Source: Quercus robur
Taxonomy: Eukaryota > Streptophyta > Magnoliopsida > Fagales > Fagaceae
Length of the DNA stretch: 64,000 nucleotides
Reading direction: 5' to 3'
Assembly: GCF_932294415.1 (NCBI RefSeq)
Contig: NC_065536.1
Coordinates: forward strand, 11,397,974 to 11,461,973
In this document: piece after piece, positions 16,561 through 64,000 of the stretch
Position numbering within the stretch: the first letter of the stretch is position 1
Layout: each line of letters begins with the position of its first letter
The notes under the pieces: generated by a model
The model's database searches: none
The model's input: the letters and a program-made list of their open reading frames with translations, nothing else
What the model was told of the DNA's origin: nothing
Made by a program: the position numbers and the translations under genes

Positions 16561-16574
16561 TCTCAATCCCATAG

Positions 16575-27601: not shown

Positions 27602-28140
27602 GCTGGGTAAACATATGCTTTTAATGCTGTTTGCAACCATGTGGTAATATAAACTCTATCGAGGTCAAGTTTTACAGAGGAGATGATAACCACAAATTCC
27701 GGGAATGCTGGAATATAATTCCAACTTTTACTTGCTTATTTGTCCTGTTTTGCTTTGAGAAACATTTGTTACTTAGTTTCACCAGTGATATGAGGAATAA
27801 AGGAAGTTAAACAAATTGACAGAAACTTCAAATTTTCTGCCAATGTTAACTAGTTCTTCTTAAGTGAAATTCCTTCAAATTTATCATATACAGTGTTTAA
27901 GTGTTGACTCCATGTCACTATCTATAAAGGGTAGTGTTTACTGTTTGTTAAAGGGTAGTATTATTTGAATATCCAAGCAATAATGGGAATCGAGGGAAAC
28001 ATTTGTTAAGTAAAATATCTTCACTCTTCTGATTTAACATGTGTCGATCCCTGCTAGATCTTGAGTGCAAATTGTGCAATATACATTTCCTGAGGTCAAT
28101 GATAGCATGCATTTTTATGTTACTTTGTGGAGAATACAGT

Positions 28141-33181: not shown

Positions 33182-34851
33182 GGAATGTTTAGAGCCATTC
33201 GAAAAGCCAGAATGTGAAGCATTTGATATCTTTGTTAATGAGGTTCTCTGTGTTGGCAAAAGTACTGCTGCATTCATTTTATTCTAAAATACACTTGATG
33301 GATCTACTCTTACCATATTGCTTGCACATACCTACCACCAAAAGGGACACTCCTGGTCATTATCATGTGCACAAAGTACTCTTTTGCTATTCTACCTATT
33401 TTTGAAGATCATAAGCTACTCCCTCTATTGAGGACCTGTTCAGGCTGAGGGTTTAAAAAAAAAAAAAAAAAAATACTCAGCACTAACATCTGCGCAATTT
33501 GAAACACATAAGCCGCTTACTGGAAATATCCAATGAAATTTTAGAAATATAACCTCTTTTCATGTCTCTTAATTTTGTGCTATTATGCAAATTTGGTTAA
33601 CTGAGAAATGCCTGTTCAATCTTATGACCATATTCTAAAATTTTTAATAATTAAAAAATTACTACATCAAATGATTATCAACCTTTCAGGATGAGTGTAC
33701 AGCCATATTTGTGAAAATCACTTTATAAAAATAATTTTCCATTTGATGGTTATCATTTAACTTATTTTTCCAATCAAAATGTGAAATCTTTTGTTTTTCT
33801 TCTCCCACTCATCTATGCAATTTTTGAATCATCTGCAGGGTGTCCATAATCCATGTTCATGTGTAAAAAGGGCACTTCATTCCTTTTCATTTGCTTCTAC
33901 TGGAAGTGCTAGGGTGTCTTCACAAGGTTGGTTAATTCTCTTATTTTTCCATTCTTTCTGAGCTTGTATGTTGTTGAGTATTAGGTCTAGGCCCACTTCC
34001 CCAATACCTAATACTATATGTACTGTCATTGTACTATTATACTACCAGCTGTACTATACTTATATACCTCTATATTATCTTAACTAGGTTGAGAGCTTAT
34101 ATCCTAAATAGAAGAATTCGAAGAAAGGCACATGTTGCCAGTTTGGCTTTTTTTCATAAAAAAAAGTTTCCAGTTTGGTAGTTCCAATAGTATTATAATT
34201 ATTATCATGAATTTGATCCACTGATATTAATTAAATTTCAAAACATCTGTGCATATGACTAGGTCATGGTGAAAACTACCAAGTTCAGCTTGCAGTAGGT
34301 CAGTGCCCAAGAAGTTGTATCCATTATGTTACGCCTTCGCAGTGATATCTTGGAGGAACTACTACACAGGTAGATAGTCATATCTCTTACCTTCCTTGAA
34401 ATCACTATTGACTGTTGTAGGCAAAAATATTGACACAAATGAACGGTATAGAGTCACTAAACTGTAGTCACACTTGTGAAAGAAATGGAGCTAGCATGTG
34501 TTCTTGACTCAGCTTGATTAGTGTATCACCTGCATTTTCATGCTCCATATCTATTACAGCCAAATCCCAGGATAAGCATACACTGGTTGGTGCTATGAAT
34601 AACCTTGATATGGTCACATATCACTGACACATGTACTATCTTACAATTTTGGGATATATCTTATGGCTTCTAACTATGGTTTCTATTTCTGGTTTCTTTG
34701 ATATCATAGTATCTTGAGCATGCCTTATAATTCATCAGCCGAGGCAAAATTGCTTTATTCTTTTATAGTTAAAGCCAAGTTTGAGAACAATCGGTACCTA
34801 AAGCTGAAGAAGCAACCCAAAACTTCAACCCAACATGTTGATTGGTTTTAA
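33182..34851 (+). pseudogene. Ferredoxin-domain gene, last four exons (copy III), broken
   Basis: Exons are visible at 33182-33265 (ECLEPFEKPECEAFDIFVNEVLCVGK), 33839-33926 (..CSCVKRALHSFSFASTGSARVSSQ), 34263-34369 (HGENYQVQLAVGQCPRSCIHYVTPSQ) and 34719-34851 (SMPYNSSAEAKLLYS...STQHVDWF, TAA). This copy shows the ferredoxin half missing from copies I and II: FVNEVLCVGK is the first cysteine cluster region and CPRSCI the second. The cluster spacing after CVGK is disturbed, and a short deletion right after TPSQ gives TGA in the third exon. The 5' end of the gene is not recognisable; the NPH3 relic lies upstream instead. It is a pseudogene. Confidence 0.65.
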
Positions 34852-36131
34852 CATTTGAATGGCTGCAAACTCATGGCCAATCACACCTAGATTATTGGAG
34901 AAAATGGAAGCTGATGTTGCTTATATATGCCTCCAATCATCTATGTGAATGCTGAATATTGGTGGTGATTATTTAACTCATCATTGATCTGACTCGCTGC
35001 TTGGAGGTGCCTTCTTGTAAAGTGCATGCACATTGAAAAACAATCCTAGGTAATAATTTGTCTGCTAAGGAGATGCGTAAAATCCTTTTCTTCCCCCCAC
35101 ACCTCCACCCATTGGGAGCTGGGGGAGGGGGCGTTGATTGGATTTATGTTAATGGCATGTGTATGTAGATAGAAGTTCACATTATATTTTTGTTATTGTT
35201 ACAGAATCTACCATATTTTTCGAAAGGAAGTTCAGTAAATACTAAATATTGCTGTGATATCAATTGATTATGCTCCTATGCTCCATAAAACAGTTCTTCG
35301 CTTACTAAACCTACCTTAATTACAAGCTTCTAGTTGGTCAGCTTCTCATCTGCTACAGGAAGGGTAACACTAATTTGTTTCTATGAGTGAAGTTCTTGTG
35401 GTTCCACCACCACATTCAGCACCATGGCATGCCATTCAGTGAATTAAAGTAGATGAACAAGATCTTATGGTTCTCCACAATCTCCACTTTCAGTTTTCAG
35501 ATGTGGTTCTTATGCTTTTTACAACATGTGAAAGCCAAACAAACCTAGAAACTGTAATATGATGCTTAAAGCCACGATGCATAGCCTTCTTGTGGATTAG
35601 TATCCGAGCGACAGAGACCATGCCAAACGATCATGTATTGTCTGTCTGCATGCGTGGTAGTTCAACATCTGCTCAGACCAATAATTAAAGAAAAAATATT
35701 TTTCCCCAGCCACATTTGATACATTATTACTCAATGGAGAGTTGGGAGAAAATGAATGTAAACATTATTGCTCAATACAGGATCATAGGCTTAGAGGGAA
35801 AAAGTAGAGGAATAGGGGAGAGATATAGAGAGAGATGAAAACGAGTTGCGCTTTAATTGGGTGCATCTTGCATCATTTCCTGCTATATTATTGAAGAACA
35901 GACACTATTTACCCTCTCATAAAAAGAAATCGAAGAACAAAAACTTGATTGAGATTGTGTAAATTAAATACGGGAAGAAGTCCTGTCAAATAAAGATTTT
36001 TTCTTTTGACCATCTTTTGATTGTATTACAATGTATAAGAACCACCACTACAAATAGTACTATACCCTTGATTGTGTGAAATATTCAAATCCGAATTATG
36101 CATTATAATATAGAATTCAAGCCACAGAATT

Positions 36132-36603
36132 GGCCAAAATGGCCCATTAGCATTAATTTTTGAAATATTTAGCAACAGAGCACTGTTTCGGAAATAATTA
36201 GGGAAATACCACATTTTCTGGTACTCGAGCATGGTGAGCTCGAGTACCATCTTTTCATTGGTCAAACATCTTCTCAAAAAAAAAAAAAAACGCCGTTATA
36301 GGGCCCAAAAACGTCACTATAGGGCTTAAAAACGCCACTATAGGGCCCCTTGAACCTGTTATGGGGATTTATAAAAAAAATTTTGCAGGAAAACGCCGCT
36401 ATAGGGCCCGAAAACGTCACTATAGGGCTTAAAAACGCCACTATAGGGCTCCTTGAATATGGGGCGACAGTGGATTAAAAAAACATGGTACTCGAGCTCA
36501 CCAAGCTCGAGTACCAGAAAAATTGGTATTTCCCTAATTATTTCCGAAACAGTGCTCTGTTGCTAAATATTTCAAAAATTAATGCTAATGGGCCTTTTTG
36601 GCC
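36132..36603. mobile_element. Foldback Mutator-like MITE (472 bp)
   Basis: Nearly perfect inverted repeats of about 100 bp run from GGCCAAAATGGCCCATTAGC inward to GGTACTCGAGC. A 9-bp target duplication CACAGAATT lies at 36123-36131 and 36604-36612. The other copies of the block (near 2070 and 16545) show the uninterrupted site CTACAGAATT. The 9-bp duplication and long inverted repeats are typical of Mutator-like elements. The interior has two direct copies (36288-36353 and 36391-36455) of a unit built from GCC(G/A)CTATAGGGC repeats. No protein is encoded. Confidence 0.88.
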
Positions 36604-36721
36604 CACAGAATTTATTGAGTAATATTGTTGGATTGAAATATATTGATTATGAAAAATTGCAAAGGGCCTTACTCTATATAGAAGAAAAGATAAAAACAGA
36701 GGGCCATTTTGAAATGGCCTT

Positions 36722-37120
36722 CATGAAGCGATTTAATGAAGAGAAGATGCCCACTGCACTATCAATGAAGGATGGACCTTGCCCTGACTTCTCCTCTACA
36801 TCTTCAAATATTATTTGCATTGATAGGCAAAAAATATTTTAACTTAAATTTTTTTAATAGTCCACTCACGTAGGATTTATATTTAAAAAATAAAAATAAT
36901 ATGAATCCATTGCCATACACAGTGTGTTAGTTAATGTAAAGGTATATATATATTTTTTGTTTAACACATGTTAAACCTGTTCTAATGAAAAATTCTATAA
37001 ATTTAGTAGCAACCTACTAGAAGTTCCTCAGCATTGGGACGACTTATGAGTTCTTTAGCAAGAAGGTATCTGTTTGACCTATCTTTATCATCTTAGAAGA
37101 CCTTCCATAATCTTGTAAAT
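36722..37120 (-). pseudogene. DUF1995-type gene remnant, last two exons (copy III)
   Basis: The minus strand keeps exon 8 (about 37027-37118: LWKVF, stop, DDKDRSNRYLLAKELISRPNAEEL) and the last exon (36722-36834 region: IIFEDVEEKSG..GPSFID..). The in-frame TAA in exon 8 and the change of the normal stop TAG to TGG make it non-functional. All upstream exons are absent. As in copy I, the base before the last exon is AA rather than AG, so that lesion predates the duplication. Confidence 0.6.
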
Positions 37121-37490
37121 GATCAAAAAACAGTTTCAGAAGTAGAGTTACTAGACATACCCAGCAACATGGGAAATAGGACCAAAAATAAAACTCTTGA
37201 GAAGGCCAACCAGATTGGCTTTAGCCCCAGTTGAAGGTAGGACTAGAAAAACTAAGAACTTGGGCTTTGTTTAAAGACTTATTAATGCTTGAATTTGGTC
37301 AACCATTTGACTTTCAATTTATTTAGTGGCCTTCATCAGCTATCATTTTATGATCACATGAAAGAGTCACATAGCAATACATGAATCATAGCATATGGTT
37401 ATTTATAGAGAACCAGATAAAAAGCAGAATCTAAATTGTAATTCAAATCATATCAATTTTATCCTTTATGAAATATCACCAAAAATTAAA

Positions 37491-37852
37491 TTTTGGTAAA
37501 TTTTGTTACCTAGGCTCCTACTGTGTCGTTCATTACAAGGATTTCTCATTTATCGAAATGAAAAAATGTACAAGCTCTGCCTTATATATAATGTTAACCA
37601 CCTTAACCGACTCTACTAAGGAAAAAAGAATAACCAATTGATGAATGACACATGTACAAAGAAATTTAAATACAAATAGAACACTTAAACAAAACGCTGT
37701 CGTGCTATGCTTCCTTAGTTAATGAAACGCTGCGTTTTGTGTTGGGTGTCTGTAGTAAGTGAAACGCTGCGTTTAGTCGCTCTGTTACAAATAGTCAGAC
37801 ACAGAGTAGCACTGGGAATACCACAACTACATGGTATTTTACATATAGAGAC
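37491..37852. other. Junction segment, possibly LTR-like
   Basis: It lies between block A copy III and the mannosidase stub. It contains two direct copies of GAAACGCTGCGTTT 45 bp apart (near 37726 and 37761), a motif type seen in plant LTR sequences. Short terminal TG/CA pairs and a target duplication could not be established. Confidence 0.25.
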
Positions 37853-38090: not shown

Positions 38091-41000
38091 AAATTTATAA
38101 TATATGGTGTTAACTCCATGTGTAAATAATTTGCAGATATGGACCCTTTTTATCATTTGCTTGCTTTTTATGTGTGTTTTCTCAATGCTTAATGTCATTA
38201 TATGTCTTGATTAAGGGAGTGATGGAATGAAGGAAAGATACAAAGAGAAGGGTGATTATTCAATTAAAAGTTTAAACTATACAAATAACAAGCTGCCTAG
38301 TTGCATTTCACAGATTAAATTGGATTGGCTTTGTACTAAGCTTCCCTGCACGGATTGGCTTTCAGCTGGAGGTTTTTTTGGATTGAATTTGTTGTTTTGA
38401 GTTGCATTGGCTTACCCAGGATAAGTGAAAAATGTGCATTAAGAATTAAAACCAGCAAACACTAAAGCAAGCTTAGCCACACTCTTTACATGATATAAAC
38501 TTGTTTTTTTATGTGTAAAATGAAACTTGAACTTCAATAGGAATCTCAGTTTCTTGTTCTTTTAGTAAAATGATTAAGTAGATTGTACGCAAAGAAACAA
38601 AGAAGTGTGCTTCTTCAAAATATCTTTGTCTTGATATTGTAATCTTATTTTCTTTGTTATTATAAAAAAATCTGAAGGGACGGTAACAAATATTGAAGTT
38701 GTGGCATATTTTCTTAGTTATTAGAAAAGAATTTCAAGAGATGGTAAGAATAATTGATGTTGTTTCTTATTTTCTCTTCTTTAGTTATTAGGAAAGAATC
38801 TAAAAGATAGTAAGAATTATTATAGACCTAGATTTCATTTTCTTTTTTTTTCCTTGGTTTTTTTTTTTTCCTTTATCTAATGTTTCTGAATAAAGGAATG
38901 ATAGTCTTATCATAATTTTATGAAAGAGTATCAAGATATTTAATCACTTTTCTTTTCTACATCAATCTAATACTTGTAATTTTGGAAAAGAAAGAAAATG
39001 GAAAGAGGAAACAAAAGACAAAAAAGGGAAAACAAGCTAAAGTAGTATTTGTTCTGCCTTTAAAAACGAAGCCCAATTGTGTTAAAACAAAATTCTTAAA
39101 TGTACTAATATGTTCAAGTGGCCAATTAACTATAGTTACTAATCTACTTTCTAAAAGAAACTAGTTAAATTAACTAATAATAAACATCTTTATCGACATT
39201 TATAAATTAATATCATAAAAAGATGATTAAAGAAAGTCAAGTAATTATGTATATCTCTTAAGTAATCAAAATAGAATCACACAAAATAATTTAATATAAC
39301 CTTTTGAATATAAGATATAATTAGCATTTGACTGTCTTATTACAAGTTTTATGTTAAGATGCCATTGGTGTACTAAACTTATTGGGAGCAAAACAATTTC
39401 TTTAGAGGAAATGCAAGTTATCTCGCACAAAAGGCACAACATAATTAAAACCAACGAAAATTATGCTTTGTTCTATTGCATCGTATGCTAATACCAAAAA
39501 AAAAAAAAAAAAAAGGTTTAAAAATTAAATATATTTTTGTCAAGATTTGGTGGCTCAATGCAAATGGTAGGTCGGCAAAACATGATAAAAAATTAAAATA
39601 AAAGCTTACAAAAAATATCTTTTACAAGCTTGAATTTATGACTCACATAGAAAGAGAAGAAATACTACAACAATAGGGATCTTTCTTGATGATGACTCCT
39701 ACCTAATGAAAATGATCTTCCAACAATTTAGGTCAAATGTTTTGAGGATGGACCTTTTCAAGTCTAATGTAAAATAGTTAGGCAAATTCATATACGAACA
39801 CAATTGTCAATAGATTCTATACTAGAAAATGTGTGTATATATTATTTGAAAAGTAAGGATGCTATTGAAGAAGGTACTGGATTTTATTTTTAATGTAAGC
39901 GTATAGATGATTCTTGAATGGATTGGGTCACACGAAAGATAACTTCCAAGTTTAGAATATATATATATATATATATATATATGAAGCAAAGATTAAAAAG
40001 AAAATATTCATTCACTTAACTTCTTATTGTCATTTATTATTTTCTTCCAAATCAAGAAAGAGTTACAAAAGATGCAAAGAAATATTCAAAATGTAAACAA
40101 TAATGTAATAAGAATAAAGAAAAAGAAAAAGTAATGGGATGAGTGAAAGACATGCATATGAATTTAGTTTGTTTAGCAAGCCGAAGAATGCTTTGAAATC
40201 CAAAGTATAAAATTCTTCCCATAAAAAAAAGTATAAAATTCTATAGAATTTTTGAAGTGTCCTCTCTTGTTAACATAAACAATAGAAATCAATATTAGTA
40301 ATTTCAAAAGTTAAATTTTGAGTAAATTCTAGCTCAAAATTCATCATTTAAATGTAACACGAGATAAAATTTCATTTGTGTATATCCTAGATATAACCTA
40401 AATAGAGATGCATATATAAATCTTATAAATGAATGAGAAAATTAAATGTTAGTATGGACATGTTTGGAAACACAAAAGGAAAAAAAATAGAAAATGTTAC
40501 TATGAAGTATTTAAGTCTAAGTTGGCAAGCAAGCATATGCCTTGCCTACTTGCCTACTTCTTCCTTTATTCTTTCTTTCTTTCTTTTGTTTTCTTTGTTT
40601 TGGAGCAAGTATCTATTCATGGACACAATGGCATGAAATCCTATATATAGTAGATGTTATATAGGGATTTCATATGAAGTTAGACTTAAAAAAAAAAAAA
40701 TTGAAATTGAGGATAATTTGGAAGCTTCCTTAAGTGTATTTTGAAGCCAAAATTGGATTCTTATTGATGTAAGTATTGATAGCTGCCTTTGTATATTTGT
40801 TCACATGTATATGTGTTTTTCTTTTGGTATTTATAAACAATAGATTACTTTTCTTACTTAAAATTTGTCATATAGATGTTAAATGTAATAAGATTTTGTT
40901 GCACTTGACACTATATTTTTGTGAGATATATTACTTCTAGATGGTTTGATATGTTACATTTAATGTAGTTTGGATAAATGGTATATCACTCAATTATTTT

Positions 41001-42631
41001 TCATAAATCAATTTTTTCTTGAATCACATTTTTATTTAATATCTATTATAGGTTAATCACACACAAAATTTCAAAATAATTAATTGCCATTAAATTTATA
41101 AAGTTTTTCATTTATTGTATTTAAGTATACAATATATATATATATATATAAAATCACTGTTCATAGATAAGTGAGTTTTTAATGTCTAATCACCTTGATA
41201 TTTAGAAAGAATAATAGATCTCCTTAATATTTAATAAGCATGATAATTGGAGGAAAGAAATTGAGTCTAATAATGGGATTACAAACTATTGTTATGGAAA
41301 AATGGAATTGAGGAATATAATTTCTATAGAAGGTAATTATCCAAAAAATAAAAAAGAAATAAATAAAACTCCGGTAAAAGTTACCCAGAAGTTTTACCCG
41401 AACATATCTCTATTAAATATTCATTTTATCCCATATTAATAGTAAGATAGTTCACATTCACTCTCAAACATTACCAAATCTTTGTTTTTTTTCTTTTTTT
41501 CATTTTTCTCTTATTTATCACATATGGGTAAGAGAGAATTTCAACCTAAATAAATAAAAATCAAGGGAGTGATAGACTCAACATTAAAAAAAATGTTTTT
41601 ATTAATAACAAAATTTCTATACTGCATTTCTCATTGTAAAAATGGATTAGCATTGAACCAAGCTCGCTTATGTGAAACTCTAAAAGATTTTTCTCTTTCA
41701 TTTTGAATCCCCAAATTACAATTACTAGTGAACTTCTTTTAGAGGTATTGTTGGATTAGCTTTGTTGTTTTGACTTTTGAGTTGTATTGGCTAAATTGGA
41801 GTAAGGAAAAACTTGCGTAAAGAATTGATCATATCAATATAAATACAAACTTTTTTTTTTTTTTGAGAGAAGAATATAAAGACAAACTTAGTTGCACTCT
41901 TTATTTATATATTGAATAAAGGCAAACTTAAACTTGTGGTAAATGATTTTAAATAAATGATAACGATTGACATAAACAAAAGAAAAAAAAAGTAAAAAAC
42001 AAATTGTATTTATCTAATCACAAGAATGGAGGATCAATTAAAAACATATTTTGAATTTTTGTTGCACAAGCATTCTTACTATGTATATTCATAACTATTT
42101 AGGTGCATTCCCTTTCACTAAAAAAAATTACGTTCATTATTAATGAAAATAAATTAAAAAAAAAAAATCCATTCCATAGTACAAGAGAAGATTTTACGCC
42201 TTCCACAGTGTTACATTAAAAAATTGAAAATATCCACAGGCCACACTCAACCCAAGCAAGCCCTTTAAAGTTAAAACATTCACATCTAATATTCATTAAC
42301 TCCAACGGCCTCCGTTACTTAACAGAACAGGGCTGGGTTTGAATGAATGAATATTTGTTAAATAAAACCACACCTTCTTCCAAATCCCTCTTTTTTCACT
42401 TTTACTCTTTACAATTCTAAAATTCAGCTCTAAAAGTTAAAACCCACCAATTCTCTCTCACTCTCACGCACTCTCTCTTTCTCTCTGTTTTTTTTTTTTA
42501 TTTCTCTCTCTAAACAAATTTGATGTTGTCCATGACTGTCACTGTTACTTTGCATGTGATAGAAAGAAGAAGATGGAGCAGCAGCAGCAGCAGCTTCTAC
42601 ATTTTTGCGATTCAAAGCATCCCTTGGTCTT
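38000..42631. repeat. Segmental duplication: mannosidase 3' flank to DC1 gene start (copy 1)
   Basis: Collinear with 57560-62507 at high identity, including the promoter and first 59 bases of the DC1 coding sequence. Differences: a 390-bp foreign insert in the other copy (59992-60383), different microsatellite lengths, and about 49 bp of leader present only here (near 42379-42415). I see no gene inside it. Confidence 0.85.
42351..42572 (+). promoter_or_regulatory. DC1 gene promoter/leader region
   Basis: A TATA-like TTAAATAAAA (about 42359-42366) lies 210 bp before the DC1 ATG, followed by a CT-rich leader. An ATG at 42523 opens a 96-codon frame that overlaps the DC1 start out of frame. Its context is weak (T before, T after), while the DC1 ATG has A at -3 and G at +4, so leaky scanning is plausible. 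Confidence 0.4.
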
Positions 42632-44231
42632 CCAACAATATGGTGGAGGTACTTGTTGTGGGTGCCAAGAATCAATTAATGGTCCTCACTACTGGTGTAA
42701 AGAATTCGGATGCCCTTACTACAGACATCATAAATCATGTGCGGAATTGCCGCTTGGGTTGCACCATCCCTTGCACCCAATCCATCCTCTTATTCTCTCT
42801 CCTGAACAGATAGATTATGGCAAAAACATACAATTTAGCAAATGCGTACTCTGCAATGAATCTCGCAACCAATACACTTATCGGTGTTCCCGCTGCGACT
42901 TTAGTCTTCACTTCAAATGCGATTCTTTACCTCCCACCATGGAGGCTGAAGTCCACGAACACCCTTTGACCCCTGTTTGGAAGTGGATCACCTTCACATG
43001 TGACCTTTGTGGCGTAGAAGACAAAGGTTTGCCCTTTCTGTGTAATTCATGTTGTTTCTTGATTCATAGAAAATGTGCTTATCAATACCCACGCAGAGTC
43101 AAAGTTGTGCGTCACAAGCACCTCCTCCACCTCACCCTTTCTTCTCTTGAATTCCATCAACCCGACTCCCGATTTTGTCAAATATGTGTTCGTAAAGTGG
43201 ACACACGTTATGGGCTTTACTATTGCTCCAGATGCAATTTCGTTGCCCACCTTGATTGTGCTATAGCCAAGGAAAACAGGGAGGATATAGATTTGTCAAA
43301 ATTTAAAGATGAGGATTCAGAGGTCGATGAGTCCATTGACTCAGCAGCACCTTACGAAGTCAAAAAATTCAATGTGGGGGAGGACAAAACTCAAATAGAC
43401 ACAGAAATTGCACACTTTAGTCACGAGCATGATTTAAATCTTACTGATGAGGTTCAAAATAGCCAAAAATGCAATGGGTGCTCACGAGCCATTGTCCCTC
43501 CCTTTTATAGTTGTGCCAAGTGTAGCTTCTTTCTTCATAAATCTTGTGCTAATTTACCCAAGAAAAAGCGACATCCACTTCATCAACACCCACTCACCCT
43601 CGTCCCAATGAAACCAAGTGGGTTTTTTTGGTGTGGTGCCTGTAAGCGGGTTTGTAATGGCTTCTCCTATAAATGTGAAGGATGTGATTTTGATCTTGAT
43701 GTTCAGTGTAGTTTGCTCTCAGACATCCTTGTCCACGAAGGTCATGAGCACCAACTTATTCTCTCCAGCACAACATATCAACAAAATTGCACTAGTTGTA
43801 ATTTTAAAAGTAACCAAATATTTCGTTGTACTGTTTGTGAATTTGCTCTCGACTTCAAATGTGCTACGCTACCATATACCACAAGGTACAGACAACATGA
43901 GCATCCCCTCAGTCTTAGTTATGCTGTTGAAGATGACTCTAATGAGTATTATTGTGATATCTGTGAAGAAGAACGAGATCCAAAACATTGGTTCTATTAC
44001 TGTGAAAATTGCAGTTATCCTGCTCATCCCAATTGCATTTTTGGGATATACACAAATATTAGGTCTGGAGATGTTTTCACATCTAACTGTCACTCACACC
44101 CCCTTACCTTCACTGTGGAAACTGAAGACGGTCCTCAATGCCACAGTTGTGGTGATCCTTGTAGAGAGTTTATCTTACAATGTGCCTCGTGTAATTTTTA
44201 CATCCACGATAAATGTTTATGGAAAAGATGA
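42573..44231 (+). CDS. DC1 (cysteine/histidine-rich C1-like) domain protein, 552 aa
   Basis: A single-exon gene encoding about nine DC1 modules, at roughly residues 16-60, 67-120, 128-173, 181-232, 283-329, 337-381, 391-434, 441-492 and 507-549. Each follows the pattern H-x-H-x-L ... C-x2-C ... Y/F-x-C-x2-C-x-F-x-[LI]-H-x2-C, predicted to bind two zinc ions like the protein kinase C C1 domain, but plant-specific. An acidic linker (about 233-282) separates modules 4 and 5. There is no signal peptide, membrane segment or kinase domain. The start ATGGAGCAG has a good plant context (A at -3, G at +4) and a five-Gln run. Intron-less genes of this size are usual in the large DC1 family, which is linked to stress, hormone and defence responses; no specific role can be given. 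It shares promoter and leader with the chimeric gene at 62.4 kb. Confidence 0.9.
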   Translation: MEQQQQQLLHFCDSKHPLVFQQYGGGTCCGCQESINGPHYWCKEFGCPYYRHHKSCAELPLGLHHPLHPIHPLILSPEQIDYGKNIQFSKCVLCNESRNQYTYRCSRCDFSLHFKCDSLPPTMEAEVHEHPLTPVWKWITFTCDLCGVEDKGLPFLCNSCCFLIHRKCAYQYPRRVKVVRHKHLLHLTLSSLEFHQPDSRFCQICVRKVDTRYGLYYCSRCNFVAHLDCAIAKENREDIDLSKFKDEDSEVDESIDSAAPYEVKKFNVGEDKTQIDTEIAHFSHEHDLNLTDEVQNSQKCNGCSRAIVPPFYSCAKCSFFLHKSCANLPKKKRHPLHQHPLTLVPMKPSGFFWCGACKRVCNGFSYKCEGCDFDLDVQCSLLSDILVHEGHEHQLILSSTTYQQNCTSCNFKSNQIFRCTVCEFALDFKCATLPYTTRYRQHEHPLSLSYAVEDDSNEYYCDICEEERDPKHWFYYCENCSYPAHPNCIFGIYTNIRSGDVFTSNCHSHPLTFTVETEDGPQCHSCGDPCREFILQCASCNFYIHDKCLWKR

Positions 44232-47829: not shown

Positions 47830-49468
47830 CTCCACTTTCTTGGGTGTCCCCACTACCCAAAGATATGAGCACTATTTGGGGTTGCCTTCACTAGTTGGTT
47901 GAGCAAAAAAGAAGTCATTTAGTATCATCAAGGAGAGAATATGGAAGAAATTGAAGGGCTGGAAAGAGAAACTTTTATCACAAGCAGGAAGGGAGATTCT
48001 TGTCAAGGTAGTTATACAAGCAATTCCAAATTGCCTAAAGGTCTCATCAATGATATTGAGTCACTCATTAGGAAGTTTTGGTGGGGATATCGCGGTGAAC
48101 AAAGGAAAATACACTGGGCTAGCTGGGAGAAGATGTGCCGGCCTAAGGGTGAGGGAGGGATGGGGTTCAGAGAGCTAAGTAAGTTCAATGATTCACTTTT
48201 AGCTAAACAGATCTGGCATCTTGCCAATAATGAGAAGTGCCTTTTCCATAAAGTATTTAAGGTGAAGTTTTTCCCTAATCGTTCTATCATGGAGTGTGAG
48301 AACTTAAATAAAGGGTCGTATGTGTGGAATAGCATCATTCAAGCCAAACATGTTATTGAAGTTGGCAGGATTTGGAGAGTTGGAAATGGTGAATCCATTC
48401 AGATCCGAGGGGATAAGTGGCTTCCAAAAGTTTCGGGTTCCAAAGTTATATCAACAGTATCGGGTTTGCCCTTGGACTCAAGGGTATGTGACATTATTGA
48501 CCAAGATTTGCATATATGGAAATCTGCCTTGATCGACCAAAAATTTATGCCTCATGAAGCCACTATGATAAAAGACATTCCCTTGAGCTGGCACAACACT
48601 CAAGATAAGCAAGTGTGGCTGCCCTCAAAACATGGGGAATATACAACCCGATCAGCCTACCAGTTATTAGCACAGAAGAACAGAAACTTGCTGTCAGGTA
48701 GCTCTTCAGATGGAGGGAACAAACGTTTTTGGAAGTGTATTTGGAGTCTGCAGGTACCACACAAGGTAAAGCATCTGGTTTGGAGAGCAGCGAATGAAGC
48801 ATTGCCAACACTTCATAACCTGTTATGCAGAAAGGTGGTTAATTCAAGTTACTGTCCAAATTGTAAGTCTAATGGTGAAGATACGGGTCATGCTTATGGA
48901 GTTGCCGGAGGCTACTTGTGATGAAGAGCTGATGAAACTCACTAGACAGAAGTTTATGGTTTTTGCTGATCTCTTGGCTGTGTTGTTCATGAGGAAGGAT
49001 AGGGTGGATGTAGACCTATTGGCCATGATCTGGTGGCTTATTTGGAGTAGAAGAAATGCTGCACAAGTGGGCGAACCTGTCTTCCAATTCCATCAGCTAC
49101 GGGCAAGGGCAGAGCAGTACCTGTTGGAGTTCAAGTCTGCCAAGGTGCGTGTCAGCAGGGGCATGGCAGATACTGTAAGGGTTGCTAGATGGGTACCTCC
49201 CATACCCAATCAGAACAACATCAATTTTGACGGGGCTGTCTTCTCCGATGTGGATGCAGTGGGTCTAGGTGTGGTAATTCGTGATGCTTGTGGACAGGTA
49301 ATTGGATCATTGGCAGAGCACATCCCAATCCCAAATTCAGCAGCAACTGTTGAAGCTCTAGCTTGCAGAAGAGCTTTGCTCTTTGCGAAAGAACTGAGTA
49401 TCTTTGATACTGTGTGTGACCCTACTATCACTTTTTGTAACCCATTGTGGTTGAAAAACGAGGCGTAA
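47830..49468 (+). pseudogene. LINE (L1-type) reverse transcriptase/RNase H remnant
   Basis: It starts within the region after the reverse transcriptase core: QRYEHYLGLPSLVG, then KKKSFSIIKERIWKKLKGWKEKLLSQAGREIL. A small deletion shifts frame to KLPKGLINDIESLIRKFWWGYRGEQRKIHWASW..KGEGGMGFREL. Next comes a zinc-finger reverse transcriptase (zf-RVT) domain (WKCIWSLQVPHKVKHLVWRAANEALPT.. C..C) and an RNase H domain (NINFDGAVFSD..GLGVVIRDACGQVI..AATVEALACRRAL). A TGA follows SLVG; a frameshift occurs near 48880; the RNase H is cut off near FDT. The 5' UTR, ORF1, endonuclease and catalytic RT core are missing, as in 5'-truncated LINE copies. Confidence 0.85.
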
Positions 49469-55180: not shown

Positions 55181-57389
55181 GTGTGGCAAGAGTTTTGGAT
55201 TACTGGAGATGTTGACGGACGGGGTGACCCAGTATCAAATCCAAATGGTCCCCAGGATCATGATCTTTTCTTGATATGTGCAAGAGACACTGTCGAGCTT
55301 CTAAGGAACCATCCAAGTCTTGCTCTTTGGGTAGGTGGAAATGAGCAAGTTCCACCAGATGACATCAACAAAGCTTTGAAAAATGACCTGAGACTCCATC
55401 CTTATTTTGAAAACTCCAATGAAATCAGCAAATCTTCTGAAGATTTATCTGCAGTGCCAAAAGATCCTAGCCAATATCTTGATGGTACACGTGTTTACAT
55501 CCAAGGATCCTTGTGGGATGGGTTTGCAGATGGAAAGGGGGGCTTCACTGATGGCCCTTATGAAATCCAAAATCCCGAAGCATTTTTTAAAAATGACTTT
55601 TACAGCCATGGATTCAATCCTGAGGTTGGTTCTGTTGGAACACCTGTTGCAGAGACTATCAGAGCAACTATGCCTGAAGAAGGCTGGCAGATTCCATTGA
55701 TTAAGAAGCTTCCAAATGGCTACACGGAAGAAGTTCCAAACCCCATATGGGAATACCATAAATACATTCCCTATTCGAAGCCACAAAAATGTGTTAATCA
55801 GATTGAACTTTATGGAACCCCAAAGGATCTTGATGATTTTTGTTTAAAGGTGAATCAAATTTTTCCACAGCAATTCTATATGCCTTGCATTTTTTTTTCT
55901 TTTTTTGTGATGACCTAACTTGAAATGATCATCAGGCTCAACTGGCTAACTACATTCAATATAGAGCTCTGCTGGAGGGCTGGACTTCCCGTATGTGGAG
56001 TAAATACACTGGCGTCCTGATTTGGAAGACACAGAACCCTTGGACTGGTCTTAGAGGTCAATTTTATGATCATCTCCTAGACCAAACGGCTGGTTTCTAT
56101 GGCTGTCGCTGTGCTGCAGAACCAATCCATGTCCAGCTGAATCTGGCTACATATTTTATAGAGGTAATTTCTACACTAGTAAGAGTTAAAATTTATGAGT
56201 TTGAATTGGATTTTGAAATTCAATGAATATTTAATATTCGATGAAGTGTTTTCATAGGACACTTATTGAGCCTGAATAATCTTTTGAATTCAATAAAACT
56301 GATGTTTTCTTTTTGACAGAGCAAAATAATAGGTTAATAAAAAAAATCTTGCAAATTTTCTCGTAGCTGATTTTCCTTTTTGTTTTTTTATGTGTGGGTT
56401 GACAAGACCAGAGGGGTGGCTGTAATCCTTAAGTTTGTGTTTCTTAAACTAAAGAATATTTCAGAAGAGGGCATATATGAAACTAATGCATTTTACTAGA
56501 AGACATTCTTCGTACTTGATACTATTTAAAATAATCCCATCCACAGATGGTATGTAACTTCACAATTGTTTTCTGATCCTGCCACAAGCAGGTTGTCAAT
56601 ACTACGTCTGAGGAACTATCCAACATAGCTATTGAAGCCTCAGTCTGGGATCTAGAAGGTACATGTCCGTACTACAAAGTTTTTGAAAATCTCTCTGCTC
56701 CAGCCAAAAAAACAGTACCCATAGTTGAGATGAAGTATCCAAAGTCTAAAAACCCAAAGCTGGTCTTCTTCCTTCTCCTCAAACTCTACCACACATCAGA
56801 CTTTGGTATTTTATCTAGGAACTTTTACTGGTTGCATCTGTCTGGTGGAGATTACAAGCTTCTGGAGCCATATAGAAGGAAAAAAATACCCCTCAAGATT
56901 ACATCCAAGGTTTTCATCAAAGGGTCCACTTATGAAATTGAAATGCATGTTGAAAACGTGGCCAAGAGAGCTGACTCTAGAAGTTTAACATATATGAACA
57001 ATTTTACAGCCAAGCAAGGTAATGGTGATTTTGATATGGCCTCAGTGGAACCTGCAACTAGTGGGACAGACGAAAAACATGAGGTTGGTTTGTTCCAGAG
57101 GATTTTCAGATGTTTCACAAAGGAAAATGGTAGTTTGAAGGTTACCGAAGTAAATGGGGCCGATGTAGGAGTTGCTTTCTTCCTTCACTTTTCTGTTCAT
57201 GCATTGAAGACAGACCACAAGGAAGGAGAGGACACAAGAATTCTTCCTGTTCATTACTCGGACAACTATTTCTCACTAGTGCCTGGAGAGGTTATGCCCA
57301 TTAAGATCACCTTTAAGGTCCCTCTGGGTGTCACGCCTCGAGTTGCGCTGCATGGCTGGAATTACCATGGTAGGCATACTGTCCATTGA
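55181..57389 (+). CDS. Mannosylglycoprotein endo-beta-mannosidase (GH2), C-terminal three exons, 5' truncated
   Basis: Exons 55181-55849 (223 codons), 55936-56163 (76) and 56592-57389 (265 plus TGA) join in phase 0 with GT-AG borders and no stop, giving 564 residues of a protein normally near 940-950. The enzyme cleaves the Man-beta-1,4-GlcNAc bond in the core of N-glycans during plant glycoprotein turnover. The GH2 core is visible: [24 protein letters not shown] with the acid/base Glu (fragment residue 55) and [11 protein letters not shown] with the likely nucleophile Glu (residue 148); then [22 protein letters not shown] and the C-terminal beta domains to [12 protein letters not shown]. The N-terminal sugar-binding domains are absent: upstream of 54000 the sequence belongs to another block. 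The exons look under recent constraint, but the gene as placed cannot give a complete enzyme. Confidence 0.85.
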
Positions 57390-57559
57390 ACTGGGTAAAG
57401 AATACTCTTTTAATTTTGTTTGCAACCTTGTGGAAGTATAAAATCTATTGAGGTCAAGTTTTACAGAGGAAATCATTATCACAAGTTCCTGGAATGCTGG
57501 AAATATACTTATTGTCCTCTTCTGCTCTGAGAAACATTTGTCACTTAAAGTTTCACCAA

Positions 57560-59384
57560 TGATACCGGGAATGAAGCAGATAAACAAATTGAGAGAACCT
57601 TCCAAATTTCTGCCAATGTTATCTAGTTCTTCTTAGGTGAAATACCTTCAAATTTATAATATATGGTGTTAAGTGTTAACTCCATGTGTAAATAATTTGC
57701 AGATATGGACCTTTTCACCATTTGCTTGCTTTTTATGTGTGTTTTCTCTGTACTTTATGTCATTATATGTCTTGATTAAGAGAGTGATGGAATGAAAGAA
57801 AGATACAGAGGGGAAGGGTGTTTATTCAATTAAAAGTTAAAACTATACAAATAAGAAGCTGCCTTGTTGCATTTCACAGATTAAATTGGATTGGCTTTTC
57901 CCTGCCTGGATTGGCTTTCAGCTGGAGGTTTTGTTGGATTGAATTTGTTGTTTTGAGTTGCATTGGCTTACCTAGGTTAAGTGAAAAATGTGCATTAAGA
58001 ATTAAAACCAGCAAACACTTAAGCAAGCTTAGCTACACTCTTTACTTGATATCAACTTGTTTTTTTTGTGTAAAATGAAACTTGAACTCCAATAGGAATC
58101 TCAGTTTCTTTTTCTATTATTAAAATGATTGAGTAGATTGTACGTAAAGAAACAAAGATGTGTGTTTCTTCAAAGTATCTTTGTCTTGATATTGTAATCT
58201 TGTTTTCTTGGTTATTAGAAAAGAATTTGAAGGGACGGTAGCAAATTTTGATGTTGTGGCATATTTTCTTAGTTATTAGAAAAGAATTTCAAGAGATGGT
58301 AAGAATAATTGATGTTGTTTCTTATTTTCCTTTTTTTGGTTATTAGGAAAGAATCTAAAAGATGGTAAGAATTGTTATCAACCTAGATTTCATTTTCTTT
58401 TTTTTTCCTTTGTTTTTTTCCTTTATCTAATGTTTTTGAATAAAGGAATGATAATCTTATTATAATTTTATGAATGAGTATCATGATATTTAATGACTTT
58501 CCTTTTTCTTTTCTACATCAATCTAGTACTTGTAATTTTGGAAAAGAAAGAAAATGGAAAGAGGAAACAAAAGGCAAAAAAGGGAAAACAAGCTTAAGTA
58601 GTATTTGTTCTGCCTTTAAAATTGAAGACCAATTGTGTTAAAGCTAAATTCTTAAATGTACTAATATGTTCAAGTGGCCAATTAACTATAGTTACTAATC
58701 TACTTTCTAAAAGAAACTAGTTAAATTAACTAATAATAAACATCTTTATCGACATTTATAAATTAAGAAAAAAGATGATAAAAGAAAGTCAAGTAATTAT
58801 GTATATCTCTTAGGTAATCACAATAGAATCACATAAAATAATTTAATATAACCTTTTGAATATAAGATATAATTAGCATTTGACTGTCTTATTACAAGTT
58901 TTATGTTAAGATGCCATTGGTGTACTAAACTTATTAGGAGCAAAACAACTTCTTTAGAGGAAATGCAAGTTATCTTGCGCAAAAGGCACAACAGAATTAA
59001 AACTAACGAAAATTATGCTACGTTCTATTGCATCATATGTTAATACAAACCAAAAAAAAAAAAAGTGTTTAAAAATCAAACATATTTTTGTCAAGATTTG
59101 GTGGCTCAATGCAAATGGAAGGTTGGCAAAACATGATAAAAAAATTAAAATAAAAGCTTAAAATAAATAACTTTTACAAGCTTGAATTTATGACTCACAT
59201 AGAAAGAGAAGAAATACTACAACAATAGGGATCTTTCTTGGTGATGACTCCTAACTAATGAAAATGATCTTCCAACAATTTAGGTCAAATGTTTTGAGGA
59301 TGGACCTTTTCAAGTCTAATGTAAAATAGTTAGGCAAATTCATATATGAACACAATTGTTAATAGATTCTATAGTAGAAAAAGA

Positions 59385-59416
<32 letters not shown>

Positions 59417-61011
59417 TGAAAAATAAGGATACTATTGAAGAAGGTACTAGAATTTTTTTTAAATGTAAGCATAGAGATGATTCTTGAATGGATTGGGTCA
59501 CACAAAAGATAACTTCCAAGTTTAGAATATGTATATGAAGGAATAATAAAAAAATAAAAAAAATAAAATTTATTCATTCACTTAACTTCTTAATGTCATT
59601 TATTATTTTCTTCCAAATCAAGAAAGAATTGCAAAATATGCAAAGAAATATTCAAAATGTAAACAATAAGGCGATAAGAATAAAGAAAAAGAAAAGGTAA
59701 TGGGATGAGTGAAAGAAGTGCATATGAACTTAGCTCGTTTAGCAAGCCAAAGAATGCTTTGAAATCAAAAGTATAAAATTCTTCCTATAAAAAAAGTATA
59801 AAATTCTATAGAATTTTTGAGTTGTCCTTTCTTGTTAACCTAAACAATAGAAATCAGTATTAGTAATTTCAAAAGTTAAATTTTCAGTAAATTCTATCTC
59901 AAAATTCATCATTTAAATGTAACACAAGAGATAAAATTTCTTTTGTGGATAACCTAGATAGAGACGCATATATAAATCTTATAAATGAATGAGCGAATGA
60001 GTCACAAATCTTTACTGGTGGTATCAATAATTTCATTCCATGCTGTGATTTCCCATGCCATGACAAAATAGCGTAAATAAATCACTCGTATAGTGTTGTG
60101 GGTGCACCAATCACTCAATGTACCAAAGTGCCGCATAAATCTTTCTATGTCCCGCGTCAAGAAGTGAAATGGAAGCCGTATCAATCATAGCGATGCCCCA
60201 ATAGAGAACTCCCACGTAAGGATCCTGCTGATCCAAAATAAGAAGCGCTGGAAACAAGTTAACGAACGGGTGGTGACAGGTTGCCATACGAATATAAAAG
60301 AGAAAGCATATGGAAGATGAAGCTATGGCTTGTCGATAGCAGTCCCACTTTATGGGTTCCAGATACTGTAGCACCCATTGTAGGAAACACAAAATGAAAA
60401 GAAAAAGGAAATGTTACAATGAAGTATTTAAGTCTAAGTTGGCAAGCAAGCATATGCCTTGCCTACTTGCCTACTTCTTCCTTTATTCTTTATTTCTTTC
60501 TTTTGTTTTCTTTGTTTTGGAGCAAGCATCTATTCATGGACACAATGGCATGAAATCCTATATATAGTAGATGTTATATAGGGATTTCATATGAAGTTAG
60601 ACTTAAAAAAAAAAAATTGAAATAGAGGATAATTTGGAAGCTTCCTTAAGTGTATTTTGAAGCCAAAATTGGATTCTTATTGATGTAAGTATTGATAGCT
60701 GCCTTTGTATATTTGTTCACATGTATATGTGTTTTTCTTTTGGTATTTATAAACAATAGATTACTTTTCTTACTTTAAATTTGTCATATAGATGTTAAAT
60801 GTAATAAGATTTTGTTGCACTTGACACTATATTTTTGTGAGATATATTACTTCTAGATGGTTTGGTATGTTACATTTAATGTAGTTTGGATAAATGGTAT
60901 ATCACTCAATTATTTTTCATAAATCAATTTTTTCTTGAATCACATTTTTATTTAATATCTATTACAGGTTAATCACACACAAAATTTCAAAATAATTAAG
61001 TATTTAAGTAT

Positions 61012-61051
<40 letters not shown>

Positions 61052-61384
61052 CACTCTTCATAGATAAGTGAGTTTTTAATGTCTAATCACCTTGATATTT
61101 AGAAAGAATAATAGATCTCCTTAATATTTAATAAGCATGATAATTGGAGGAAAGAAATTGAGTCTAATAATGGGATTACAAGCGATTGTTATGGAAAAAT
61201 GGTATTGAGGAATATAATTTCTATAGAAGATAATTATCCAAAAAAGAAAAAAGAAATAAATAAAACTTTGGTAAAAGTTACCCAAAAGTCAAACCTAAAC
61301 ATATCTCTATTAAATATTCATTTTATCTCATATTAATAGTAAGATAGTTTACATTCACTCTCAAACAAGACCAAATCTTTGTTT

Positions 61385-61424
<40 letters not shown>

Positions 61425-62507
61425 CATATGGGTAAGAGAGAATTTCAACCTAAATAAATAAAAATTAAGGGAGTGATAGACTCAACATTAAAAAAAATGT
61501 TTTTATTAATAACAAAATTTCTATACTGCATTTCTCATTGTAAAAATGGATTAGCATTGAACCAAGCTCGCTTATGTGAAACTCTAAAAGATTTTGCTCT
61601 TTCATTTTGAATCCCCAAACTACAATTACTAGTGAACTTCTTTTAGAGGTATTGTTGGATTAGCTTTGTTGTTTTGACTTTTGAGTTGTATTGGCTAAAT
61701 TGGAGTAAGGAAAAACTTGCACAAAGAATTGATCATATCAATATAAATACAAACTTTTTTTTTTTTGAGAAGAATATAAAGACAAACTTAGTTGCACTCT
61801 TTATTTATATATTGAATAAAGGCAAACTTAGACTTGTATTAAATGATTTTAAATAAATGATAACGATTGACATAAACAAAAGAAAAAAAAAAGTAAAAAA
61901 CAAATTGTATTTCTCTAATCACAAGAATGGAGGATCAATTAAAAACATATTTTGAATTTTTGTTGCACAAGCATTCTTACTATATATATATTCATAACTA
62001 TTTAGGTGCATTCCCTTTCACTAAAAAATTTACGTTCATTATTAATGAAAATAAATTATAAAAAAAAAAAAAAAAATCCATTCCATAGTACCATAGAAGA
62101 TTTTACGCCTTCCACAGTGTTACATTAAAAAATTGAAAATACCCACAGGCCACACCCAACCCAAGCAAGCCCTTTAAAGTTAAAACATTCACATCTAATA
62201 TTCATTAACTCCAACGGCCTCCGTTACTTAACAGAACAGGCTGGGTTTGAATGAATGAATATTTGTTAAATAAAACCACACCTTCTTCCAGTTCTAAAAT
62301 TCAGCTCTAAAAGTTAAAACCCACCAATTCTCTTCTCTCGCTCTCACGCACTCTCTCTTTCTCTCTGTTTCTTAAATTTCTCTCTCTAAACAAATTTGAT
62401 GTTGTCCGTGACTGTCACTGTTACTTTGCATGTTATAGAAAGAAGACGATGGAGCAGCAGCAGCAGCAGCTTCTACATTTTTCCCATTCAAAGCATCCCT
62501 TGGTCTT
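57560..62507. repeat. Segmental duplication: mannosidase 3' flank to DC1 gene start (copy 2)
   Basis: Partner of 38000-42631. It links the mannosidase copy to the chimeric DC1 locus in the same order as the first copy, so the unit duplicated was mannosidase plus DC1. It carries (AT)n tracts near 59384 and 61016, a (TC)n tract near 61390 and an insert at 59992-60383. No gene is seen in the shared sequence. Confidence 0.85.
59992..60383 (-). other. Foreign insert of unknown origin in copy 2 of the duplication
   Basis: In place of about 25 bp at 40435-40460 of the other copy stand about 390 bp of visibly higher GC content. The minus strand gives YLEPIKWDCYRQAIASSSICF..PALLILDQQDPYVGVLYWGIAMIDTAS and, in another frame, FHFLTRDIERFMRHFGTLSDW..AWEITAWNEII. 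It looks like protein-coding or organellar-type sequence. I do not recognise it. No inverted repeats or target duplication are seen at its ends. Confidence 0.4.
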
Positions 62508-64000
62508 TTATCCCCGAAGTCATTTTTAGATTATCTAGATTAGAAGAGATTTACATACGTAATTGTAAGGAGCTTCGGGAAATTCAAATTCCAAGGCTTC
62601 CACAATCTATTAGAGAAGTGATGATAGAACAATGCCCATCGTTGCTTCCACAATCATCAAGTAGATTATTGAATCAGGTGAGGTCTCTCTCTTTGATAAT
62701 TAAGTAGTAAAGATTCAATTTTTTTGTTAACTTCTTTCACAAACTTCAATTTCTTGTTTTTGTTTAATGCAAGCAGTTTGGAAAAATTCTAGGGATTCTA
62801 TCGAATAGAGTTCGTGAAGGTGCAAGAAGCGACATATTAATGGATCTCTTTGACGACTCTGAATCTGAATCTGACTCTGAAATTGAGTATAGGTTTATTT
62901 TACTACCAGAAACTGAGATTCCAAAGTCACTTAAATTCAATCATCAGAGTTTTGGAAATTCCATATCATTCAAGGTTGGTTGCAAATTTCCAAAATTGGT
63001 CGTCTGTGTTGCTTTTCGTTCTGCGGAGGCACATATGGGTTGTCGATGCTTTGGGGCTCACGTTTCCATCAATGGTTGTAAGCAGTATTCCGAATATAGA
63101 CCCACAAAAGAAAGCTACGAGGAACTGTGGTTATTTTCTAAATCTCTAGGGCAGTTGAATAAACCAAATCTATCTGAACAGAATCAGGTGGAGGTTGAGG
63201 TTAGTTGTGTAATTGGCCCTCGTTATGAATCAGTTTATGGTCCTGCCTACTGGTGTCAAAGAGGTGGATACCGGCATTGGATAGACACCATTCATCATAA
63301 ATCATGTGCGGAATTGCCGCTTGGGTTGCACCATCCCTTGCACCCAATCCATCCTCTTATTCTCTCTCCCGAACAGATAGATTATGGCAAAGACATTCAA
63401 TTTAGCAATTGCCTACTCTGCAATGAATCTCGCAACCAATACACTTATCGGTGTTTCCGCTGTGACTTCAACCTTCACTTCACATGCGCTTCTTTACCGG
63501 CCACCACCATGGAACCTGAATTCCACGACCACCCATTGACCCCCATTTTGAAGTCGTTCACATTCACTTGCGACCTTTGCGGCAAAGAAGGCAAAGGTAC
63601 GCCCTACCTGTGCCATCTATGTAGTTTCTGGGTTCATGGAAGATGTGCTTCTTTCCCACGCGTGGTCAAAGTTGTGCGTGACAGGCACCTCCTCCACCTC
63701 ACCCATTCTTCTCTTGAATTCCATCAACTCGACTCCCGATTTTGTCAAATCTGTGTTCAAAAAGTGGACACACGCTATGGGCTTTACTATTGCTCTAGAT
63801 GCAATTTCGTTGCTCACCTCAATTGTGCTCTCGACACCAGAAACAGGGAGTACATAAATTTGAAGGAATTTAAAGATGTGGATGAAGTTCCAGAGCTGAA
63901 TGAATCGGCTGACTCAGCAACTTACGAAGTCAAAAAATCCAATATGAAGGAAGACGGAACTCAAATATTCGAAGAAATTAAACACATCAGTCACGAGCAT
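62399..64000 (+). CDS. Chimeric gene: TIR-NBS-LRR tail (LRR plus C-JID) fused in frame to DC1 modules (3' end outside window)
   Basis: Exon 1 (62399-62677) starts at an ATG in the shared DC1 leader and reads MLSVTVTVTLHVIERRRW(S)6, then IPEVIFRLSRLEEIYIRNCKELREIQIPRLPQSIREVMIEQCPSLLPQSSSRLLNQ, a last LRR as in TIR-NBS-LRR (TNL) proteins. A 99-bp GT-AG intron (62678-62776, phase 0) leads to FGKILGILSNRV.., the C-JID domain (LPETEIPKSLKFNHQSFGNSISFKVGCKFPKLVVCVAF.., ending VYGPAYWCQRGGYRHWID), and at 63293 directly into DC1 sequence (HHKSCAELPLGLHHPLHPIHPL..). At least three DC1 modules follow. No stop occurs between 62777 and 64000. TIR and NB-ARC are absent. The native DC1 ATG (62449) is left with a 26-codon dead frame. 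Expression is not shown; it may be a new gene or a neutral fusion. Confidence 0.75.
62508..63292 (+). repeat. TNL-derived segment replacing 94 bp of the DC1 first module
   Basis: Alignment with the intact paralog breaks after TTGGTCTT (62507 / 42631) and resumes at CATCATAAATCATG (63293 / 42726). The 785 bp between are TNL 3' coding sequence with its intron still present, so the transfer was DNA-based, not through mRNA. No inverted repeats or target duplication are visible at the borders. Confidence 0.8.

Follow-up and report, generated by a model that had tools for sequence, protein, structure and literature searches.

An oak DC1 gene carrying the 3' end of a TNL receptor gene: a probable young chimera

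The window, by which we mean the whole 64,000-nucleotide stretch of Quercus robur DNA analyzed here, corresponds to C3:11397974-11461973, and the genome searched comprised 785.7 Mb in 42 contigs. The window contains an intact DC1 gene (copy 1) and, at its right end, a second DC1 gene in which part of the first module is replaced by the 3' end of a TNL receptor gene (Table 1). Elsewhere it carries retroelement remains at 47941-49468, with frames matching zf-RVT and RVT_3, and a frame at 56730-57389 that matches the exo-beta-glucosaminidase Ig-fold (PF18368). The segment at 56916-57687 has a partial duplicate at 27163-27915, and another segment is present in three whole or partial copies, 84-94% alike, at 1-2984, 14643-16561 and 33926-37492.

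Table 1. Features of the fused gene and its intact paralog, in window coordinates
Feature	Position	Strand	Basis or remark
Copy 1, intact DC1 paralog, 552 aa, no insert	42573..44231	+	
Shared 5' flank, leader and first DC1 codons	60383..62507	+	alike to the DC1 copy at 40466-42632
Exon 1, read from the upstream ATG	62399..62677	+	translation, 93 codons
DC1 leader and 5' end, read in another frame	exon 1, residues 1-37	+	
TNL LRR end	exon 1, residues 38-93	+	TNL similarity from 62510
Native DC1 ATG and its frame	62449..62529	+	A at -3, G at +4; 26-codon frame, stops inside the insert
Captured TNL 3' fragment, ~718 bp	62509..63226	+	93% to C6:53376130-53376849 over query 2-705
Left junction, TATCC, apparent microhomology of 4-5 bp	62509..62513	+	DC1 paralogs and TNL relatives
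Native TNL intron, GT-AG, 99 bp	62678..62776	+	between LRR and post-LRR exons
Exon 2	62777..64000, on past the window to the native DC1 stop	+	674 codons
C-JID-like post-LRR domain, truncated	62891..63214	+	last strand, KWxxVxVxC, missing
Right junction, TNL/DC1, within a few bp	63226..63227	+	DC1 similarity from 63227, L033-like TNL up to ~63226
Remaining half of DC1 module 1	63227..63319	+	alignment with P0034 and paralogs
DC1 modules 2-4 and linker	63320..64000	+	modules run on past the window to 64798

Translation confirmed the proposal of the initial annotation that a single frame leads from the ATG at 62399 over an intron to the end of the window. Exon 2 is open and in frame from 62777 onward, and in the genome sequence it reaches the native DC1 stop at window coordinates 64799-64801, which excludes a stop just past 64000, an outcome that the annotation had considered fatal to the fusion. 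The predicted product of the joined frame is 767 amino acids long and ends in NMHEFCALKG, as does the DC1 protein P0034; its 2301 nt contain no stop or frameshift. By reasoning rather than computation, the openness inside the TNL and DC1 parts was inherited, and the coincidence needed was a 3' joint in frame (1 in 3) or, if the upstream ATG is required, a match at both joints (1 in 9).

The intron had been described as canonical and 99 bp long, and it is both. The proteins of TNL relatives are continuous over the splice site (LLNQ before it, FGKILG after it), and genomic TNL relatives carry the same intron. Thus, the intron is the receptor's own.

The boundaries of the insert differ from those first given. 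The junction had been set at 63292/63293 and the length at 785 bp; we rejected that position because DC1 homology begins already at 63227, and the insert measures ~718 bp. It takes the place of ~37 bp of DC1 module 1, a length judged from paralogs (the stretch missing between the junctions is 37 bp in both copy 1 and L023). No clear microhomology was found at the right joint. At the left joint, TNL relatives align from 62509 onward, and the DC1 alignment to the fusion reaches 62513 in 9 of 14 loci (L023, L029, L020, L025, L021, L004, L019, L022 and L018) and ends at 62506-62507 in the other five (L005, which is copy 1, L024, L027, L014 and L006). TATCC is found at this joint in L023, and ATCC in L029, L020, L025, L021, L004, L019 and L018. 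The two parents thus share an apparent microhomology, a judgement for which paralogs stand in for the sequence that the recipient itself has lost.

A search of the same genome with the insert gave 48 matches, with 40 of 130 candidates scored, and the top match was the window itself. The best other match listed, C6:53376130-53376849 (L031), shows 93% DNA identity and has an open TNL tail, interrupted by the same intron; further listed matches lie at C6:53322562 (89%), at C6:53353514 (85%) and, two of them, at C2:21.58-21.59 Mb (80-81%). No other match among the 48 listed reached 95%. Up to 63199, the insert departs from L031 at 32 of 686 sites: 13 of 164 in the part belonging to the LRR exon, 2 of 99 intron sites and 17 of 423 in the exon that follows. 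From 63200 to 63226, 13 of 23 sites differ from L031, and L033 fits better (6 of 27). Because this last stretch resembles L033 more than L031, and the exact donor was not found among the genome matches listed, the true donor would be an unsampled or recombined member of the TNL cluster on C6. Donor-type genes of this cluster occupy C6:53.32-53.38 Mb, on another chromosome than the fusion.

The captured fragment brings less of a receptor than was at first proposed. The initial annotation spoke of an LRR and a C-JID; the C-terminal end of the LRR and most of a C-JID-like domain are present, but the rest of the LRR and the last strand of the domain are not. LRR sequence is limited to residues 38-93, the end of the relatives' LRR, and LRR models match it only below cut-off. 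Searches of the 501 aa encoded in the window (E up to 1) and of the whole exon 2 product (E up to 0.1) matched neither a TIR nor an NB-ARC domain. The fusion therefore has neither the TIR and NB-ARC domains nor the LRR array of a TNL receptor.

The missing strand, K-W-x-x-V-x-V-x-C, is conserved in 90% or more of 14 aligned relatives; a truncated Q. suber relative within that alignment (P0160) also lacks it. We have taken it as the TNL relatives' counterpart of the fourth, Cys-Gly C-JID motif. In a low-confidence model of the relative P0158, it would correspond to residues 136-146, the part absent from the fusion. By eye, the residues invariant in the C-JID-like part of the 14 relatives are kept in the fusion up to the junction. 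Of the motifs defined in PMC8813719, the first, P-x-[Y/E/W]-F, which follows the LRR, is represented by a deviating IPKSLKF at residue 141, as in several relatives, and the second, a conserved Cys with hydrophobics, is fitted by VCVAF at residue 169. The profile search suggested for this part, PF20160 against 62777-63226, gave no match at E up to 10, a weak test for these TNLs, in which intact relatives match below threshold (P0158 at 13 and P0017 at 15.1 bits, against a cut-off of 24.1) or not at all (P0001, P0002 and P0004). According to PMC12787737, the C-JID is specifically associated with TNLs.

Downstream of the joint, the DC1 modules announced by the initial annotation were borne out. 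PF03107 matched the exon 2 product in 8 stretches with an E value of 9.2e-65 (profile search), and the full product contains 16 CxxC pairs, by count two per module for eight modules; a strict zinc pattern fits six of them. The product thus has the tandem C1_2 modules with zinc ligands that define the DC1 family, with an incomplete first module. The core of that module had been reported as lost: the half with the first His and CxxC is indeed replaced, but the second half remains. Module 1 lacks the first His and the first CxxC, and in its second pair the second Cys is missing as well.

The recipient had been called a duplicated DC1 gene, a description that suits only its 5' flank. There, the fusion and copy 1 differ by 78 substitutions in 2105 aligned sites nearest the gene (3.7%) and by 156 differences in 2417 sites further upstream (6.5%), and 60383-62200 is 95.7% alike to a DC1 locus left of the window (L014). 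The shared flank appears to be either a recent duplicate or a converted tract. Between the DC1 tails of the fusion and copy 1, on the other hand, dN is 0.20-0.21 and dS 0.25-0.32 over 518 codons, and the tails fall in different branches of a DC1 tree of 37 sequences in which several supports are moderate. Because the tails are far more diverged than the flanks, the recipient was an old DC1 gene, with a 5' flank that underwent recent homogenisation or duplication. An insertion that simply hit a fresh duplicate is ruled out, since the tails belong to old paralogs.

Among the proteins listed, the nearest full-tail relative is ACB092_03G051300 (P0034) of Castanea dentata, with 86.5% identity over 526 columns and an intact first DC1 module; among the oak DC1 loci compared, L019 is the best full-tail match, with 82.4% at the DNA level. 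A tree of the first 261 amino acids had pointed to a Castanea chromosome-2-like lineage as the source of the tail, an idea that we dropped because the full tail is closest to ACB092_03G051300. In three DC1 genes (the fusion, copy 1 and L014), the 5' flanks are ~96% alike and the coding tails only ~81-82%, and to judge by these values, homogenisation or recent duplication seems to have acted on the 5' ends separately from the coding parts. The database protein P0147 (430 aa), a 100% match to 42939-44228, begins at an internal Met and is shorter than the intact 552-aa frame of copy 1, which starts at 42573. DC1 modules are very numerous in this genome and clustered, at C3 10.2-11.8 Mb and 67.0-67.4 Mb and also on C1, C5, C38 and C40; the count of at least 150 matches is a lower bound, with 150 of 823 candidates scored. 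Tomato has 21 DC1 genes (PMC10707348).

Translation could begin at more than one place. The LRR piece is in frame with the upstream ATG at 62399 and not with the native DC1 ATG at 62449, as initially reported; the native frame ends after 26 codons. The upstream ATG has a weak context (T at -3 and T at +4), and the next ATG in frame, at 62621, has G at -3. A counterpart of the ATG at 62399 is found in copy 1, L014 and L019, three insert-free paralogs, and TTTGATGA, similar to this start, is found in L020 and L029. Since it is present in paralogs that lack the insert, this ATG is older than the fusion and is an old leader feature rather than a start recruited by the fusion.

The dN/dS comparison that had been proposed gave no sign of constraint on the insert side. 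Against L031, the closest donor relative, dN was 0.057 and dS 0.058, with 18 nonsynonymous and 5 synonymous differences in 199 codons. With dN equal to dS, we see no sign of purifying selection in this comparison, a weak test for TNL paralogs, which diversify fast. Against L032, dN was 0.119 and dS 0.044. Against L033, the values were 0.167 and 0.094, and the differences from L032 and L033 are mostly nonsynonymous. This excess is as expected for fast-diversifying receptors. The branch of the fusion in the TNL tree measures 0.16 and is among the shorter ones of 26. The divergence between the insert and L031 lies within the values seen for the 5' flanks that the fusion and copy 1 share (3.7% and 6.5%). 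We simulated neutral decay of the 2301-nt frame at the divergence rate of the flanks in 1500 runs. At flank age, the frame was still open in ~1% of runs at 1.5 frameshifts per kb and in 5% at 0.7 per kb; at about half and about a quarter of that age, 11% and 33% remained open. According to this model, the frame would postdate the divergence of the flanks or else be under mild constraint.

We next consider how widespread the fusion is. Three protein searches yielded 200 proteins (in two of them, the best 120 of 131 and the best 120 of 121), of which 42 matched the TNL part and 157 the DC1 part; none had both. The insert was present in 1 of 29 loci compared, that of the window itself. The initial annotation had suggested looking for the same junction in related genomes; it was found neither in a second species nor in a second copy among the listed proteins and genome matches. 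Absence from protein sets is weak evidence, because receptor genes in oaks are strongly under-annotated: in haplotype A of Q. alba, 111 were annotated and 1042 found (PMC11883056). In the literature searched, no paper paired the C-JID with a DC1 domain or an integrated domain and NLR with DC1, nothing dealt with DC1-receptor fusions, and in the main text of PMC12787737, 'DC1' does not occur and 'C1_2' occurs once. A TNL end joined to DC1 modules without TIR or NB-ARC is thus, as had been claimed, a make-up not described in the 200 listed proteins or the literature searched.

Taken together, these findings are probably best explained by a young chimeric gene that arose in an oak DC1 cluster through repair with a foreign template. 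The same genome contains both parental gene types, as TNLs at C6:53.32-53.38 Mb and as the DC1 cluster around the window; the intron is retained, and the left breakpoint bears apparent microhomology, as in chimeras formed by DNA-mediated capture. Retention of the TNL intron argues for capture at the DNA level and against retroposition or a spliced cDNA. The anatomy of the joints (intron kept, apparent left microhomology, no inverted repeat longer than 4 bp or direct repeat longer than 5 bp in the 40-bp edges) fits break repair with a foreign template. Ectopic recombination of this kind is discussed for the formation of NLR-IDs in PMC5819176. The repair step itself is one that we infer. A DNA break would have hit an old DC1 gene within its first module, and the repair would have brought in a TNL 3' end comprising the end of the LRR, the intron and most of the C-JID-like domain. 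The outcome is a single open frame of 767 codons that can be spliced, carries eight further DC1 modules and ends at the native stop. Provided that the inherited DC1 promoter drives its transcription, the gene would encode a DC1 protein with a TNL-derived N-terminal extension, translated weakly from 62399 or, after the 26-codon frame of the native start, from 62621. Any activity would reside in the DC1 array, as the sensor piece is probably too incomplete to recognise effectors, and the joined gene may well decay.

Three observations sit less easily with a young chimera formed by repair. The frame stayed open in only ~1-5% of simulated runs at flank age, which hints at a later event or some constraint. 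The donor is approximate, and an unsampled or recombined paralog is needed. Finally, the microhomology is judged from paralogs, and 5 of 14 DC1 loci stop short of 62513.

The strongest alternative, which we regard as possible though unlikely, is a nascent pseudogene: the insertion would have destroyed the DC1 start, leaving a transcript mostly untranslated or degraded. The well-placed native ATG, with its 26-codon frame, is consistent with this, as is the equality of dN and dS against L031; moreover, no listed protein is 90% or more identical to the DC1 tail (best 86.5%), though other Q. robur DC1 proteins are listed. However, the 2301 nt without stop or frameshift argue against a pseudogene, as do the in-frame ATG at 62621 with G at -3 and the presence of the same upstream ATG in insert-free paralogs, including copy 1 with its intact frame of 552 aa.

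We consider it improbable that the gene encodes a working decoy or adaptor, in which an effector or a partner TNL would still be bound by the LRR/C-JID fragment, with relay or anchoring left to the DC1 array. In its favor are the continuous 767-aa frame with eight further DC1 modules, the low chance, in the simulation, of neutral persistence for a fusion of the same age as the flanks, the invariant C-JID-like residues kept up to the junction, and pepper CaDC1, which is cited as required for defence and cell death (PMC10707348). Weighing against it are the reduction of the LRR to its end, the weak start context at 62399, the restriction of the junction to a single copy among the listed proteins and matches, and a dN equal to dS against L031. 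In addition, flax P2, RPS4 and N are reported to lose their function when the C-JID is truncated or mutated (review PMC8813719). The C-JID as the sensing domain of a decoy or adaptor, as initially envisaged, is thus unsupported: its last strand is cut off, PF20160 gave no match (in a weak test), and no constraint is visible. A related reading, which we hold to be quite improbable, is a new accessory protein that displays a TNL surface (LRR end and truncated C-JID) on a multi-module DC1 scaffold, is expressed from a DC1 promoter and acts as an immune decoy or adaptor; it would have originated when a receptor donated a fragment to a non-receptor gene, the converse of an NLR-ID.

Capture by a Pack-MULE- or Helitron-like transposon instead of break repair is very improbable. 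Transposition is among the mechanisms discussed for receptor fusions (PMC5819176), but DC1 sequence was lost here rather than duplicated, and the 40-bp stretches at the insert edges share no inverted repeat longer than 4 bp and no direct repeat longer than 5 bp; a short check of these edges revealed no transposon ends. Least credible of all is a false assembly join of two loci: the region is clustered and repetitive, but none of the other matches scored in the assembly (40 of 130 candidates) is identical to the insert, the best reaching 93%, so that it is not a misplaced copy of any of them, DC1 sequence lies on both sides, and one contig runs through the whole gene.

The young chimeric gene can be set beside several known systems. 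Multi-module DC1 proteins of Fagaceae (C1_2, PF03107), such as ACB092_03G051300, have the same array and the same C-terminal end, with 86.5% identity over the whole tail; the fusion differs in that its first module is half replaced, it has a TNL-derived N-terminal extension and its native start is out of frame. TNLs similar to the TMV resistance protein N (Q. robur P0001; C6:53.32-53.38 Mb) share the LRR end, the intron and most of the post-LRR domain, whereas the fusion lacks TIR, NB-ARC, nearly all of the LRR, the last C-JID strand and the C-terminal tail. Chimeric DC1 models of Fagaceae (P0071 with PF00733, P0152 with PF00078) also combine DC1 with foreign domains, but these are unverified models with other partners. 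In the models P0071, P0152, P0170, P0095 and P0096, DC1 is joined to the Pfam domains PF00733, PF00078, PF14392 and PF00083. DC1 clusters may often yield chimeras, or may often be misannotated.

NLR-IDs resemble the fusion in combining receptor sequence with an unrelated domain, probably at the DNA level (compare PMC5819176). In NLR-IDs, receptors take up foreign domains; here, the polarity is opposite, and a receptor fragment moved into a non-receptor gene of a tandem DC1 family, a family reported to be linked to defence in pepper and tobacco (PMC10707348). Without NB-ARC, the fusion is not an NLR. Both parents still have close relatives in the genome, and the rearrangement can therefore be read. 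If expressed, the gene would be a datable case of receptor pieces seeding new genes; otherwise, it clearly illustrates how a chimeric frame can be open and yet should not be called a new receptor class.
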